Assembly (NCBI GenBank): GCA_014695325.1
Contig: JACJNZ010000054.1
Location: forward strand, 1 to 64,000
DNA: 64,000 bases
Reading direction: 5' to 3'
Source: Cyanobacteria bacterium FACHB-502
GTDB taxonomy: Bacteria; Cyanobacteriota; Cyanobacteriia; Elainellales; Elainellaceae
In this document: in pieces, positions 27,952 through 38,796 of the stretch
Layout: every line of letters starts with the position of its first letter
Position numbering within the stretch: position 1 is the stretch's first letter
Position numbers and translations under genes: made by a program
The notes under the pieces: model-generated
Database searches by the model: none
Seen by the model: only the letters and a program-made list of their open reading frames with translations
Told to the model about the DNA's origin: nothing

Positions 27952-29121
27952 TCAAATTGCATTTGCTTTCAACTTCTCAGGATTAATTTGAAACTGAATT
28001 GTTGCAGCCTTTCTTTTGCCAGGAAGCTCCTGTGCCCCTAAGATATAGCCTTCCTGCTGCAACTCCTCTACAGTACGCCAGAAGATTTGGTTGTTGCGTG
28101 CAGTATTGCTCCCGAACAGGTCAAGATTCTTGAACAGATATTGTTTAGAAATCGTGAGATACTGTCCGTCCTGTGGGGAGTCCCACTTCAATCGGCTAGC
28201 TAGGTAAATCAACAGCTTTGTCTTATAATCGTTTTTCGCATTGTTTCCTAGCTTCTGCTTTAGGTCAATATCGCTAGCAAACAATACATAATCTCCAGTG
28301 CGTCCTGGACCCTCGAAGAATTCTAGAGCAACTGTGTAGGCATCTGCTAATTCATAGGTATAGTCAGCAGCCTTCAATAAGTCAAAGTCGCGTGGAACGT
28401 TATCAATTTCATAATCTTTGATTCGCAACACGCTCTTGATCATGACCTTTGCACCAACCTGATTACCCTTCCGAAGGGATTGGGCAAGTACAAGTTCTGT
28501 GCGGTGCAGAGCGACGAGATCGCGGTTGAGCTGCGATCGCACCTTTGAAGCAAACCCACCGTCTTTGGTACGCTTGTAGCCAAGGCACTCTAGCAGGTCA
28601 TTCGATCGAAACGTAACCAGTCGTCCGTTACCCTGGTGAGCTGCTAATCGATATAGGTAAAGCACGATTGCGACCTGTCTGGGATTGAGGAAAGTCAGCA
28701 GCGCCATGAATAACCGTTGGATTCTGCGATCCTGGATCTTCTCCAATCCATTACTGATCCCTTCATCACTACAGGACTGTAGATCGAGATCGGCATACTG
28801 CTGCTTTAGTTCTTCCCATTCCTCCACTGATAGGTTTTCTAACTGTACCCGTCGAGTCAGTATCACTTCACTAGGGTCATTAGAATCTGATTCAACCCGC
28901 ATCTCCAGGTAGTACCCATCCTCATCGGCTCGTAGGATTGGTAGCTGGACATCGGGGTTTCTAAGAGATGCCCCTGCGCGAGGCAGCACCATCAAGAGTT
29001 GCCCATCAACAGCGAACGATCCGTTTTCCTGCTTCTCTACCATAAGCTCCTGCTGATCGGTCTGGGGTTGTTTGGCAATTTTACCAGCGAAGTAGTCCAG
29101 CAAGGCATATTTTTTAAGCAT
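27952..29121 (-). CDS. Plasmid replication initiator (iteron-binding, winged-helix Rep type)
   Basis: The 389-residue soluble protein has no enzymatic motif. It contains winged-helix-like stretches (R-Q-V-A-I-V-L-Y-L-Y-R-L-A, V-T-F-R-S-N-D-L-L-E-C-L-G-Y-K-R-T, then D-Y-K-T-K-L-L-I-Y-L-A-S-R-L and T-I-S-K-Q-Y-L-F-K-N-L-D-L-F). This matches cyanobacterial plasmid Rep proteins as I know them. The decisive context is the array of 12 iterons starting 68 bp upstream of its start codon. It should bind the iterons, melt the origin and control its own expression. The assignment rests more on context than on a single motif. Confidence 0.75.
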   Translation of the reverse strand: MLKKYALLDYFAGKIAKQPQTDQQELMVEKQENGSFAVDGQLLMVLPRAGASLRNPDVQLPILRADEDGYYLEMRVESDSNDPSEVILTRRVQLENLSVEEWEELKQQYADLDLQSCSDEGISNGLEKIQDRRIQRLFMALLTFLNPRQVAIVLYLYRLAAHQGNGRLVTFRSNDLLECLGYKRTKDGGFASKVRSQLNRDLVALHRTELVLAQSLRKGNQVGAKVMIKSVLRIKDYEIDNVPRDFDLLKAADYTYELADAYTVALEFFEGPGRTGDYVLFASDIDLKQKLGNNAKNDYKTKLLIYLASRLKWDSPQDGQYLTISKQYLFKNLDLFGSNTARNNQIFWRTVEELQQEGYILGAQELPGKRKAATIQFQINPEKLKANAI

Positions 29122-29580: not shown

Positions 29581-29852
29581 GATTTCGCCTCTTGAGATCC
29601 TTATAGTGCAGTGGTACGCTTTGTCTTGGAAAACCTAAAAAACCGGGGCGGAGCCTCTCGCAAAGCCTCTCTACACCCGGTTCTCTAGTTCGAGTCTGGA
29701 ACGACTGCCATCGTTTCAGATTCTTTTGATTTACCTTCTTGCTAAGGCTACCACATTTTTCTTTGGTGTGGCAGTCTGAGTTTTGTGTTGGCTATAGGCT
29801 GGAGAATCAATAGAGGCATTTGCTGCTTGCCCTGGCTCTCAAGAGAGTCATC
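29581..29852. other. Gap between iterons and primase gene
   Basis: No gene is seen. There is a long-range inverted pair AACCGGG (near 29640) / CCCGGTT (near 29677). Further on, a hairpin CCACA...TGTGG (near 29749-29772) encloses a T-rich loop. These could be part of the origin or of a transcript leader; nothing more can be claimed. Confidence 0.4.
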
Positions 29853-31598
29853 ATGGTCAGTGCAGCTCGTGAATTTCAATATGTTCAGGAGTGGGACGAT
29901 GCATTTCTTATGCTTTTCCCACATCGTTTTGACTACATCTGGGCAGAGCATTCAGATCCAGGTGTAAAGCCCCAGTGGAAGACGGAGAGTCGACATCCCT
30001 TAAGCGATCGCCTGATTCGACAAGGATCTTCTTTGTATGGTGTGCGCTTTGGTGCGGAAACTCGGTATGCTCTGGTTGATATTGACGTGACCAGTCTTTA
30101 TCACCCCAGTCGAGATCCCTTTGCTATTTCTCGCATTGTTGCTGCCTTGGAACCACTGGGACTTGTCGGTTATCTTGCTTGTACCTCTAGCTATAGCGGG
30201 GGACTTCACCTTTATTTCCCATTTCAGCGATCTCAGAGTTCCTGGCAGGTCGCTATTGTCCTGGCTTGTCTTCTGGAAAATGCTGGATTCAAACTTCAGC
30301 CTGGGCAGCTTGAACTTTTTCCGAATCCCAGGCCTTTCACAACGGATGGAACCTATAGCCTCTTTAATGCTCACCGTCTGCCTCTACAGGCTGGTTCCTA
30401 TCTCTTAAATACTGAGTGGCAGCCTGTTTGGGGTAATACACAAACTTTCGTTCGACAGTGGCAGTTTGTTCAAGAGCGGAATACTTTGGATACCAGCACA
30501 ATCAAGCGAGTGCTGAAGCAGGCGAGGCGACGCCAATACGGAATTTCTGGCAAAGTGGAAAAGTTTATCAATGATCTAAACGCTGAGATTGAGCAAGGTT
30601 GGACTGGAGTAGGGCAAACAAATCGCCTTCTAGGACGCATTACCATGCGGTCCTATATTTTTCATCATCTTCTAGTAGGTGGTCAGCCGTTAGAAGGACA
30701 GGCATTAGTGGATAACATTGTAGTAACTGCACGATCCCTACCTGGGTACACAGATTGGTGCCAGCATCAGCATGAGATTGAACACCGCGCTGAGGAATGG
30801 GCACGATGTATTGAAAACAGCCATTACTTTCATTTTGGTTCTCGAATTTCCAAATCTAAGCTAGAACTTCAAGCCCCAGAACTGGCGACCGCAATTGACC
30901 AGTTGCCTTCTTGGAACCAGCGACAGTCAGCAGTGACAAGGGACCGTATTAAGCAAGCAATTGCAGATTTGCTTGAAAAGGGTAGTTTACCTGTTCGACC
31001 AACAGCTCGTTTTCAGGCACTGCTCCAATATGGCATTGGAGGTGGATCACTCTATCGCCACCGTGACCTGTGGCATCCCAATTATTTTGGACTGGGATCT
31101 GCTCAGGAAGAGGGAGCAGGTCATCAACCTGTGGAAAACCCCCCGCACCCCCCTTGCTTCAGTGAGAACAGCCAGTTAGATTGCACTGAAGCAGCATCTA
31201 ACTGGCTCAGTTCTCCAAGCTTATTTCCTAACGGTGGCGGTGATAATAGACAGGACAAGGCTTCTAGCCATTGTTTTAGTTCTGAAGGGCGATCGGCTGA
31301 TGGTAATGCTCTTGCTCCTTCCGGTTCAACTGGGGTGGAGTATATTCAGCAAGCTCTGTTTCAGGTGAAGGCACAGCAGGAAGCGTATCAGCAGGCAAGG
31401 CGATCGGCTCAATTGCGGCTGCAGCACATCCGCTCTGAAGCTCAACAGAAGCAGCAGATTGACCAGATGCAGCAATATCTTGCGTCTGGTGATCCAATTC
31501 TTATAGCAGAAGCAAGGGCATGGGCAGAGATTAATCCAGGAGTGCTGGACATGGAGCAACTGCAACTGCCGCTCATCCAGATACCTGATTCTGAATAG
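29853..31598 (+). CDS. Archaeo-eukaryotic primase (AEP)-like plasmid replication protein
   Basis: This is a 581-residue protein from the ATG at 29853 (the longer frame begins with TTG). The N-terminal third carries the AEP triad: D-I-D in A-L-V-D-I-D-V-T-S-L-Y (metal-binding D-x-D) and, after T-S-S-Y-S-G-G, L-H-L-Y-F-P-F (the s-x-H-type motif). Further conserved blocks are E-L-F-P-N-P-R and a helical segment. The C-terminus has a Gln-rich coiled coil (A-Q-Q-E-A-Y-Q-Q-A-R-R-S-A-Q-L-R-L). It lies beside the iterons, opposite to rep, and probably primes leading- or lagging-strand synthesis at the plasmid origin. No helicase domain is fused. Confidence 0.7.
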   Translation: MVSAAREFQYVQEWDDAFLMLFPHRFDYIWAEHSDPGVKPQWKTESRHPLSDRLIRQGSSLYGVRFGAETRYALVDIDVTSLYHPSRDPFAISRIVAALEPLGLVGYLACTSSYSGGLHLYFPFQRSQSSWQVAIVLACLLENAGFKLQPGQLELFPNPRPFTTDGTYSLFNAHRLPLQAGSYLLNTEWQPVWGNTQTFVRQWQFVQERNTLDTSTIKRVLKQARRRQYGISGKVEKFINDLNAEIEQGWTGVGQTNRLLGRITMRSYIFHHLLVGGQPLEGQALVDNIVVTARSLPGYTDWCQHQHEIEHRAEEWARCIENSHYFHFGSRISKSKLELQAPELATAIDQLPSWNQRQSAVTRDRIKQAIADLLEKGSLPVRPTARFQALLQYGIGGGSLYRHRDLWHPNYFGLGSAQEEGAGHQPVENPPHPPCFSENSQLDCTEAASNWLSSPSLFPNGGGDNRQDKASSHCFSSEGRSADGNALAPSGSTGVEYIQQALFQVKAQQEAYQQARRSAQLRLQHIRSEAQQKQQIDQMQQYLASGDPILIAEARAWAEINPGVLDMEQLQLPLIQIPDSE

Positions 31599-32482: not shown

Positions 32483-33664
32483 CTAGCCTTTAACGCACAT
32501 CACCTGCTTCAGCGTGGCAACGACTTCGACCAGATCGTTCTGGTTCGCCATCACCTGCTCGATCGGTTTGTAGGCACTCGGAATTTCATCCAGCACGCCT
32601 TCGTCCTTGCGGCACTCTACCCCATCGGTCTGCTGAATCAGATCGTCCAGCGTAAAGTGCAGTTTTGCCTTATTGCGTGACATTCGGCGACCTGCCCCAT
32701 GCGAGCAGGAGCAGAAAGCATCTGCACAGCCCTTGCCCTTCACGATGAAGGACTTTGCACCCATTGAGCCAGGGATAATGCCATAGTCTTCTTGGCGCGC
32801 CCGCACTGCCCCTTTACGGGTGACATACACCGATTCGCCAAAATGAGTTTCCCGCTCGGCGTAGTTGTGGTGGCAGTTGACCTGAATGGAGGGCTTAAAC
32901 GGTTTACCGCCTGCCAGATGCGTTTCAACAACGCGCTTGAATCGTGCCATCATCACTTCCCGGTTCCGCAGGGCATAGTTTTGCGCCCATTGCAGATCGC
33001 GCCAGTATGCCTCGAATTCAGAAGTGCCCTGAACAAAGTGAGACAGATCCGGATCAGGCAGCTTTAATCCAGCCAGCTTTGCCAGCTCTTTTGCCGTTTC
33101 AATGTGACGCTGCGCCAGCATGTTGCCGATGTTGCGGCTACCGGAATGCAGCATCAGCCACACCTGTCCCTCGGTATCCAGGCACAGTTCAATAAAGTGG
33201 TTGCCCCCGCCAAGGCTACCCATCTGCTTCAAAGCTTTGCCATCCAGGTGTTGAACCCCAGAATGCAAATCCTTGAAGTCACCCCAACCCTGCCAGTTGG
33301 TCACGTCTTTGTCAGTGTCCTTGTTCTCGTTAAAGCCAACCGGAATCAGCTTTTCAACGTCCAGACGAATCTGCTTCAGCTTCCCGTCGAGCTGGTCAGC
33401 ATGATAAGGCGTTTTTACAGCACACATCCCGCAGCCAATATCCACGCCCACAGCAGCAGGGACGATCGCATCTTTGGTGGCGATCACTGACCCCACCAAT
33501 GCACCCTTACCCAGATGAACATCGGGCATGAGGGCAACGTGCTTGTGAACAAACGGCAAGGAGGCAACGTTCTTTGCCATTTTCATTTCATCATGTCCCA
33601 ACTCATGTCCTGCCCAAGACAGAACGGGCACTGGAGTTGATAAATTGAGCTTGTCGTAAGGCAT
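32483..33664 (-). CDS. rtcB: RtcB-family RNA ligase
   Basis: The 393-residue protein has the RtcB landmarks in order: D-V-H-L-G-K-G (residues 48-54), V-G-V-D-I-G-C-G-M-C-A (metal-binding Cys), L-G-G-G-N-H-F-I-E, H-S-G-S-R-N-I-G, and C-S-H-G-A-G-R-R-M-S-R, where the histidine is the GMP-accepting residue. RtcB joins 2',3'-cyclic phosphate or 3'-phosphate ends to 5'-OH ends of RNA using GTP and Mn2+. It is the last gene of an apparent transcription unit: a promoter at 34126-34154, a 77-aa protein, a tRNA-like gene, then rtcB 43 bp further. No archease or RtcR regulator is adjacent. The protein is somewhat shorter than the E. coli enzyme but no core motif is missing. Confidence 0.93.
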   Translation of the reverse strand: MPYDKLNLSTPVPVLSWAGHELGHDEMKMAKNVASLPFVHKHVALMPDVHLGKGALVGSVIATKDAIVPAAVGVDIGCGMCAVKTPYHADQLDGKLKQIRLDVEKLIPVGFNENKDTDKDVTNWQGWGDFKDLHSGVQHLDGKALKQMGSLGGGNHFIELCLDTEGQVWLMLHSGSRNIGNMLAQRHIETAKELAKLAGLKLPDPDLSHFVQGTSEFEAYWRDLQWAQNYALRNREVMMARFKRVVETHLAGGKPFKPSIQVNCHHNYAERETHFGESVYVTRKGAVRARQEDYGIIPGSMGAKSFIVKGKGCADAFCSCSHGAGRRMSRNKAKLHFTLDDLIQQTDGVECRKDEGVLDEIPSAYKPIEQVMANQNDLVEVVATLKQVMCVKG

Positions 33665-33707: not shown

Positions 33708-33804
33708 AGCTAATGACAGGACTCGAACCTGCCTACGCGCAGCGAAGCTGATCCGTACCGCATCGCTTATAAGGCGATTGCTCTACCCACTAAGCTACAT
33801 CAGC
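33708..33804 (-). tRNA. tRNA-like gene, anticodon UAU, with extended variable-region hairpin
   Basis: The 97-nt cloverleaf can be drawn in full. The 7-bp acceptor stem is GCTGATG with CATTAGC (one G-T pair). The D arm is GCTT/AGAGC-type with loop GG. The anticodon stem ATCGC/GCGAT holds loop CTTATAA, giving anticodon TAT (33769-33771). The T arm is GCAGG-TTCGAGT-CCTGT. The discriminator base is U. Between anticodon and T stems are 29 nt instead of about five, containing CAGC-TTC-GCTG and TACG/CGTA pairings, that is, a class II-like extra arm. UAU would read AUA (Ile), normally served in bacteria by a lysidine-modified CAU tRNA. It lies 43 bp upstream of rtcB and downstream of a 77-aa gene. 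Confidence 0.65.
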
Positions 33805-33847
33805 ATTTGGTCGCGGAGCTGGGTTTTAGCAGCAGTGATTGCAGAAA

Positions 33848-34081
33848 TTAGAAGAAGTTGCGCCGTTCCAGACGATAGATTTGCTCTAGATGGCGAAAGG
33901 CTTCAATCTGTTTCAAGCCGCGATCGTGTTTTAAGCTGCGATCGGATTGATGTTCCAGATCAAGATGTTCTAGATCAAGGGTTTTGTCTCGAAGGGGTGC
34001 AACTGCACCAGGGGAGGATGGTTTGAGGAACGCTAGCCACTTCGAGAAAAGACCGATGCTGGGGAGGGAGCGAGAATTCAT
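33848..34081 (-). CDS. 77-aa hypothetical protein, first gene of the rtcB unit
   Basis: This is a small basic/polar protein. The N-terminus S-I-G-L-F-S-K-W-L-A-F-L-K-P is amphipathic. The C-terminal half contains imperfect repeats of the type L-E-H-x-D/H-L-x-x-Q and ends R-L-E-R-R-N-F-F. No family is recognised. Support for expression is strong for its size: AAAGGAG lies seven bases before the ATG, and a consensus-like promoter with an inverted repeat is 45-70 bp upstream. The tRNA-like gene starts 43 bp after its stop, so it is probably co-transcribed with rtcB. Confidence 0.6.
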   Translation of the reverse strand: MNSRSLPSIGLFSKWLAFLKPSSPGAVAPLRDKTLDLEHLDLEHQSDRSLKHDRGLKQIEAFRHLEQIYRLERRNFF

Positions 34082-34121
34082 GGGTTAGCTCCTTTCGGCT
34101 GTTCTGTGTCTCATCTTATGC

Positions 34122-34169
34122 TACAAATGTAATATTTGTAATACAGGCTGTCAAGGGCATACTACAAAT
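34122..34169 (-). promoter_or_regulatory. Promoter and operator of the 77-aa/tRNA/rtcB unit
   Basis: On the minus strand TTGACA (34154-34149) is followed after exactly 17 bp by TACATT (34131-34126), a near-consensus sigma-70 promoter. It points at the 77-aa gene and would start transcription near 34119. An inverted repeat TACAAAT-5 bp-ATTTGTA (34122-34140) covers the -10 box, and another CTACAAAT half-site lies at 34162-34169 just beyond the -35. This arrangement suits a repressor. The binding protein is not identifiable. Confidence 0.7.
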
Positions 34170-38082: not shown

Positions 38083-38796
38083 ATGGACTGGCAAGCAATA
38101 TTTCACTGGGTCTATGTCACCGCGATGGTGATCGGGGCACTTTATTTCATGGCTCTCAGTCGCAATCCATGCGGGGTGCCCAAATATGAGTATTTAGTTG
38201 CGACCTTTATTCCCATCTGGTCGGGACTCGCCTACATGGCAATGGCAATGGGGCAGGGAAAAGTTGAGATAGCAGGACAAATCACGCACTATGCCCGCTA
38301 CATCGATTGGTTCGTAACCACTCCCCTACTGCTGCTGTCGTTATCGTGGACAGCGATGCATCACATTGCCAAAGATTGGACTCTGATTGCTGGGCTGATG
38401 GGAACGCAAGTGATTGTGATTGGGAGCGGGCTAATCGCAGATTTATCTACCACAGATGAAACACGCTTTGTTTGGTATACCTGCGGTGTTGTTGCGTTTC
38501 TCGTGGTTCTTTGGGGAATTTGGGTGCCGTTGCGGGCAAAGACTCGGGGTCAGGGGATGGAGTTTTCCACCCTTTATACAAAGCTCGTTGCCTATTTCAC
38601 GGTATTTTGGATTAGCTACCCGATCGCCTGGTTAATTGGTCCTTCTGGTTTGGGCTGGGTCAACCAAACAATTGAGACATTGCTGTTTTGTGTACTGCCC
38701 TTTTTCTCTAAGGTTGGGTTCAGCTATCTAGATTTGAATGGTCTACGCCGTTTGAGAACACGGTCTACAGCGACAAGCCCTAAAATCCTTTATTGA
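38083..38796 (+). CDS. Anabaena sensory rhodopsin-type microbial rhodopsin
   Basis: The 237-residue seven-helix protein has the retinal Schiff-base lysine K210 in helix G (F-F-S-K-V-G-F), R72 and counterion D75 in helix C (R-Y-I-D-W), T79 and S86 (pump proton donor position replaced by Ser). P206 stands where pumps have the second counterion Asp. D217 is also present. These residues and their numbering equal those of Anabaena sensory rhodopsin as I know it, a photochromic sensor that signals through a soluble tetrameric transducer. No transducer gene follows. Instead there are a convergent small membrane protein and a two-component system. It is therefore predicted to sense light rather than pump. 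Confidence 0.93.
   Translation: MDWQAIFHWVYVTAMVIGALYFMALSRNPCGVPKYEYLVATFIPIWSGLAYMAMAMGQGKVEIAGQITHYARYIDWFVTTPLLLLSLSWTAMHHIAKDWTLIAGLMGTQVIVIGSGLIADLSTTDETRFVWYTCGVVAFLVVLWGIWVPLRAKTRGQGMEFSTLYTKLVAYFTVFWISYPIAWLIGPSGLGWVNQTIETLLFCVLPFFSKVGFSYLDLNGLRRLRTRSTATSPKILY

Follow-up and report, generated by a model that had tools for sequence, protein, structure and literature searches.

The window, meaning the whole 64,000-nt stretch of a FACHB-502 contig analysed here, contains a tRNA gene with the anticodon UAU that is genuine and well supported, unexpected in its origin and doubtful in its decoding role. It is probably the single surviving tRNA of a collapsed trn array, kept in a stress-controlled unit and a marginal reader of AUA at most. 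Cyanobacterial trn arrays are mobile, normally silent operons of stress tRNAs. For example, the Anabaena trn operon lies on the delta plasmid, comprises 26 tRNAs and is repressed by TrcR (PMC10272220). The window locus resembles this operon in its TGTAGTAT-box promoter region, its array tRNA and a leader common to the arrays of relatives, and its own genome holds a TrcR-like protein and operator, while it differs in being reduced to one tRNA followed by rtcB. The features are collected in Table 1.

Table 1 Features of the window at and around the UAU tRNA gene
Feature	Positions	Strand	Basis
tRNA gene	33708..33804 (33804-33708)	minus	tRNA-Thr(UGU) body by alignment, anticodon UAU, U73, no encoded CCA; Rfam 57.7 bits
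Anticodon UAU	33769..33771 (33771-33769)	minus	UGU in 10/10 aligned relatives
Short dispersed repeat copy GCGATGCGGTACGGATCAGCTTCGCTGCGCG	33736..33766	minus	further copies not in tRNAs, both in the own genome and in relatives
CCGCGACCAAAT, apparent 3' leftover of array tRNA-Met(CAU) plus spacer	33805..33816	minus	FACHB-8 match
Whole trn-array leader segment	33825..34170	minus	blastn 83.3% over 347 bp to G001 trn leader, E 2.7e-101
77-aa leader ORF, ends LERRNFF	33848..34081	minus	homologues at head of trn arrays
Predicted trn-type promoter with TrcR-type boxes	34118..34166	minus	box similarity to trn arrays
Promoter part, TGTAGTAT box	34166-34159	minus	
Promoter part, -35 TTGACA	34154-34149	minus	
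Promoter part, GTATTACA	34144-34137	minus	
Promoter part, -10-like TACATT	34131-34126	minus	
Promoter part, TGTAGCAT	34125-34118	minus	
rtcB, RNA ligase	32483..33664	minus	Pfam RtcB 420 bits; one match in own genome
Protein, presumably plasmid replication	27952..29121	minus	73% identity to FACHB-8 trn-contig protein
Protein	29820..31598	plus	51% identity to FACHB-8 trn-contig protein

The tRNA gene and its descent

The first-pass annotation had described a tRNA-like gene with a complete cloverleaf, a UAU anticodon, a U discriminator and a 29-nt variable region, and all of these are present, the variable region spanning 33761-33733. Nor is the covariance score low: the Rfam tRNA model aligns full-length (model positions 1-71, E 7.8e-10) at almost twice its cut-off of 29 bits. 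Uninserted relatives reach 65-73 bits and the sole other inserted relative 59.3; the insert reduces the score without abolishing the match. ARAGORN, run over the window, made no call at this gene, and together with Rfam it yields one tRNA only within the window instead of the tandem tRNAs of a trn array, hence the term remnant. The annotated excess of about 24 nt equals the net gain of 24 nt over uninserted orthologs in the alignment. Of the hairpin proposed for it (TACG/CGTA plus CAGC-TTC-GCTG), two stacked stems are indeed possible, and inspection gives a 3/2 internal loop, a 4-bp helix and a 3-nt terminal loop; yet the arm is thermodynamically unremarkable, as the isolated 29-nt region (z = +0.55 against shuffles) carries no structure signal above shuffled sequence. 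The cloverleaf with its variable arm folds at -28.6 kcal/mol, compared with -32.5 kcal/mol for a different minimum-energy fold. The stem substitutions seen in the alignment with relatives (A5-U68, G4-U69 and U13-G22) all preserve pairing, which may be a weak sign of constraint and hence of some function.

By alignment, the tRNA body is that of the tRNA-Thr(UGU) of a mobile cyanobacterial trn array with a single anticodon change, G35A, and not that of the isoleucine tRNA with which it had been compared. A search of relatives with the full tRNA sequence returned one near-complete match, 87% over 91 nt, on contig41 of Leptolyngbya sp. FACHB-8 (G004:C36). There, the inserted tRNA retains the anticodon UGU and belongs to a trn array that is otherwise intact, with tRNA-Thr(GGU) and tRNA-Gly(UCC) on either side. 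The array tRNA-Thr(UGU) of G026 is 91% identical over 43 nt. G026, G050 and Kovacikia have UGU counterparts without the insert at the corresponding place in their arrays. The threonine anticodon (G35, U36) is not retained in the window, which has A35 where all ten aligned relatives have G35. The own chromosomal tRNA-Thr(UGU) likewise ends in U73, so that the unusual discriminator fits threonine descent.

The own genome carries a second, larger trn array on contig C86, in which two tRNA-Thr genes, fused into a single remnant (L007 4764-4842), stand where relatives have Thr-CGU, Thr-GGU and Thr-UGU. Other members of the own trn array have drifted anticodons too, e.g., Gly UCC to UCU; the survey of anticodon drift flagged 41 of 263 cases, many of them best-hit artefacts, and only those with a matching array position were kept. 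The anticodon in the slot after tRNA-Trp varies by genome (CUA, GCA, CAA and CUU among L004 2464-2535, L177 4974-5044, L180 3171-3243 and L005 1596-1668). In the G001 trn array, an apparent group II intron (L173 6612-6688; Rfam 61.8 bits) separates tRNA-Glu from tRNA-Arg(ACG).

Like the class II tRNAs (Ser, Leu and Tyr), the UAU tRNA has a long variable arm with a stem, and at 29 nt its variable region exceeds the published range of 4-23 nt for such loops (PMC5733544). Descent from class II was considered and rejected: the arm was acquired by repeat insertion into a class I tRNA-Thr, and neither G73 nor A73 is present. The class II phage tRNA to which the first-pass annotation had alluded is set aside on the same grounds, array descent and an inserted arm. 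A pattern scan of viral contigs gave 0 matches, and the phage matches obtained span only tRNA-Thr-like parts of the body, covering at most 39% of the query. Two loci of the Planctomycetaceae MAG palsa_1355 (L143 7565-7615 and L145 4847-4896) contain stretches resembling this tRNA, in which the anticodon loop is of the UAU type and the variable hairpin is long and rich in G+C; as both fall under the Rfam cut-off, these matches to the long-variable-arm pattern were not accepted as further such tRNAs.

The repeat in the variable region

Judged by its copies elsewhere, the extra hairpin is a short dispersed DNA repeat and not an intron, which bears out the earlier suggestion of an insertion. The left end of the repeat (GCGAT) doubles as the anticodon stem's 3' strand, and the remainder replaces the 6-nt variable loop. 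GCGATNCGGTACGGATCAGCTTCGCTGCGCG is found outside tRNAs, with exact cores in G020, G006 and the own contig C84. Allowing up to three mismatches, G020 has 26 copies and G028 11; the own genome has 4, and a reversed-pattern control gave 0 in these three genomes. The copies lie at several unrelated sites; in an alignment, their left border, at GCGATCC, is sharp, and their flanks are unrelated. The corresponding empty site is seen in the insert-free array tRNA-Thr(UGU) of G001, G006, G026, G050, Kovacikia and Nostoc. Among 388 cyanobacterial genomes searched, the inserted tRNA occurs in two, the own genome and FACHB-8, with the same insert at the same position.

Short dispersed repeats of cyanobacteria were treated by Elhai et al. 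2008, as cited in PMC4390886. The insert resembles them in being around 30 nt long and partly palindromic, in its HIP1-like GCGATC start and in its many copies in some relatives, while its location in a tRNA variable loop differs and no match was made to SDR5 or another named class. One statement in PMC4390886 places SDR5 insertion within HIP1 GCGATCGC, and the GCGATC start of the insert fits that statement.

Two other arrays have enlarged tRNAs. On a Kovacikia minuta plasmid, the tRNA-Arg(ACG) of the trn array (L006 2395-2494) measures 100 nt, its variable loop being enlarged by about 22 nt; this insert occurs once on that plasmid, leaving its status as a repeat family unproven. In the G007 trn array (L175 4477-4573), the T arm of tRNA-Asp contains an inserted palindromic stretch, ACTGCTTCGCAGAAGC. 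Typical group I introns are far longer than 22-49 nt. The 22-49 nt "group I introns" reported in cyanobacterial tRNA-Arg(ACG), Gly(TCC) and Lys(CTT) (PMC5733544) might be repeat inserts like that of the window.

Array leader, rtcB and TrcR

Upstream of the tRNA, the array promoter region and leader ORF are intact. The TGTAGTAT box is identical to the footprinted TrcR site at the -10 region of the Anabaena trn operon (PMC10272220), and TGTAGTATGCCCTTGAC is unique in the window and found 0 times in 100 shuffles. A promoter scan picks up the -35/-10 pair, yet not above chance by itself, and a stricter composite promoter pattern gave no match. Segments resembling the predicted promoter precede trn arrays in G001, G006, G007, G017, Kovacikia and Nostoc MS1, and promoter and leader together align with the G001 trn leader at 83% over 347 bp. 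In G001, which belongs to the same genus, an ORF 76% identical to the leader ORF (E 1.5e-27; dN 0.13, dS 0.25) immediately precedes tRNA-Asp in the trn array. Weaker relatives of this ORF head the arrays of G007, G017, G006 and Kovacikia, in the last two again directly before tRNA-Asp, while the own C86, FACHB-8 and Nostoc MS1 arrays have none. The leader runs into CCGCGACCAAAT and then the tRNA. These 12 nt are identical to the tRNA-Met end in the FACHB-8 array and appear to be a tRNA-Met remnant, an assignment that, given their shortness, leans on position too. The tRNAs from Asp to Met are otherwise gone. The tRNA and the apparent Met remnant resemble FACHB-8, whereas the leader resembles G001, so that two arrays may have recombined here and the locus may not stem from a simple deletion.

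The FACHB-8 array contig also encodes homologues of two further proteins of the window (27952-29121 and 29820-31598); both loci therefore probably belong to one mobile-replicon family. Plasmid replication is our guess for the first, for which a Pfam search gave no match. Elsewhere in the window, a microbial rhodopsin gene (38083-38796, plus strand; Pfam Bac_rhodopsin 212 bits) is followed just downstream by an apparent response regulator and histidine kinase pair.

The RNA ligase gene rtcB begins 43 nt downstream of the tRNA, and this gap contains no TGTAGTAT box, TrcR-type promoter or other recognisable promoter. In several relatives, e.g., G001 and G020, TGTAGTAT boxes lie directly upstream of rtcB. 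Since a tRNA precedes rtcB at 0 of 16 loci in relatives (two of these being pieces of one split gene) and the tRNA beside rtcB in G020 lies just downstream of it, a conserved tRNA-rtcB pair was rejected. The trn operon of Anabaena shares its repressor, TrcR, with rtcB (all3526) (PMC10272220). The ligase neighbour that the first-pass annotation had pointed to is thus meaningful in that trn arrays and rtcB there share one repressor, while its tie to the insert does not hold, as FACHB-8 has the same insert on an array contig without rtcB and none of the relatives' 16 rtcB loci has an upstream tRNA. On contig C89 of the own genome, a TrcR-like protein is encoded behind TACTACACTTGTATTAC, which is identical at 17/17 positions to the reported Anabaena trcR operator core, and a TrcR-like paralogue sits near the own trn array. 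Neither protein has a Pfam match; they are called TrcR-like on the strength of operator, position and mutual likeness. Leader ORF, tRNA and rtcB would form one TrcR-controlled transcript made under translational stress.

It is possible, though rather unlikely, that the tRNA serves such a transcript as a processing signal, with cleavage by RNase P and at the 3' end detaching the rtcB message from the leader ORF and setting the 5' end of that message, decoding being irrelevant. The predicted order of promoter, leader ORF, tRNA, 43-nt gap and rtcB, all on one strand, on which there is no terminator-like site, would suit this role, as would the preservation of structure while the anticodon changed. 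However, rtcB of several relatives sits behind an adjacent boxed promoter region without a tRNA, and such a signal is therefore not generally needed.

Charging, decoding and the fate of the tRNA

In bacteria, tRNA-Ile2 has a CAU anticodon that receives lysidine from TilS. The UAU tRNA would likewise read AUA by its anticodon, yet it differs from tRNA-Ile2 in its body, in U34 instead of modified C34, in U73 and in its threonine-type stem. Both tilS and a tRNA-Ile(CAU)-like gene of the Ile2 type are present in the host, so AUA decoding is independent of the UAU tRNA, and the AUA role implied by the first-pass annotation is unneeded. In 20 ORFs of the window, AUA makes up 19 of 9195 codons. Threonine identity lies in the anticodon and acceptor pairs, isoleucine identity needs discriminator and anticodon, and serine identity lies in the variable arm (PMC9976931). 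A73 and the isoleucine acceptor-stem determinants are absent from the UAU tRNA, which has U73 and G4-U69 compared with C4-G69 in E. coli. It thus appears to satisfy neither the threonine nor the isoleucine identity set in full, and its charging is doubtful.

These features bear on an unlikely alternative, that the gene encodes a functional stress tRNA that decodes AUA, carries isoleucine or some other amino acid and is under selection along with rtcB. The full cloverleaf, with stems paired despite substitutions, speaks for it, as do the predicted stress-inducible unit with RtcB and the survival under antibiotics that trn expression favours in Anabaena (PMC10272220). Against it, U73 and the threonine-type acceptor stem are unsuited to isoleucine identity and the anticodon change removes the threonine determinant (PMC9976931); AUA is rare and already covered, and anticodon drift has affected other own trn-array tRNAs as well. 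The more specific proposal that a long-armed tRNA, made from a threonine tRNA by a repeat, reads AUA in stressed cells and is co-made with RtcB is highly improbable; if true, isoleucine or a non-cognate residue would be placed at a rare codon as part of the stress response.

Excision of the hairpin as an intron, with the tRNA halves sealed by the adjoining RtcB, is extremely unlikely, even though RtcB is a ligase of tRNA halves in eukaryotes and archaea (PMC10272220). Copies of the insert are present in the genome outside tRNAs, inspection found no clear bulge-helix-bulge or other splice signal, and both FACHB-8 and the 16 relative rtcB loci speak against it, leaving the earlier idea of a required splicing step unsupported. 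The hairpin would instead be kept in the RNA as an oversized, unspliced variable arm, after release of the tRNA by RNase P and 3' processing. Cyanobacteria are not known to have a tRNA-splicing endonuclease.

The UAU tRNA is thus most likely a relic with marginal or no decoding function, as far as can be read from its sequence. On the preferred reading of a collapsed array, an array tRNA-Thr(UGU) would have had its variable loop replaced by a dispersed repeat and its anticodon changed from UGU to UAU. Charging of the product is probably poor or absent, since the threonine anticodon is gone and A73, which isoleucine would require, was not gained. Points against this reading are the chance-level -35/-10 pair, a cloverleaf that is not the minimum-energy fold and the 12-nt length of the Met remnant. 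The locus indicates that collapse of a large operon of stress tRNAs can leave a promoter and a single tRNA in front of another member of the predicted regulon, here rtcB. It also indicates that an array tRNA can take up a dispersed repeat in its variable loop and keep it in two genera, and that genes of this kind can escape standard tRNA finders.
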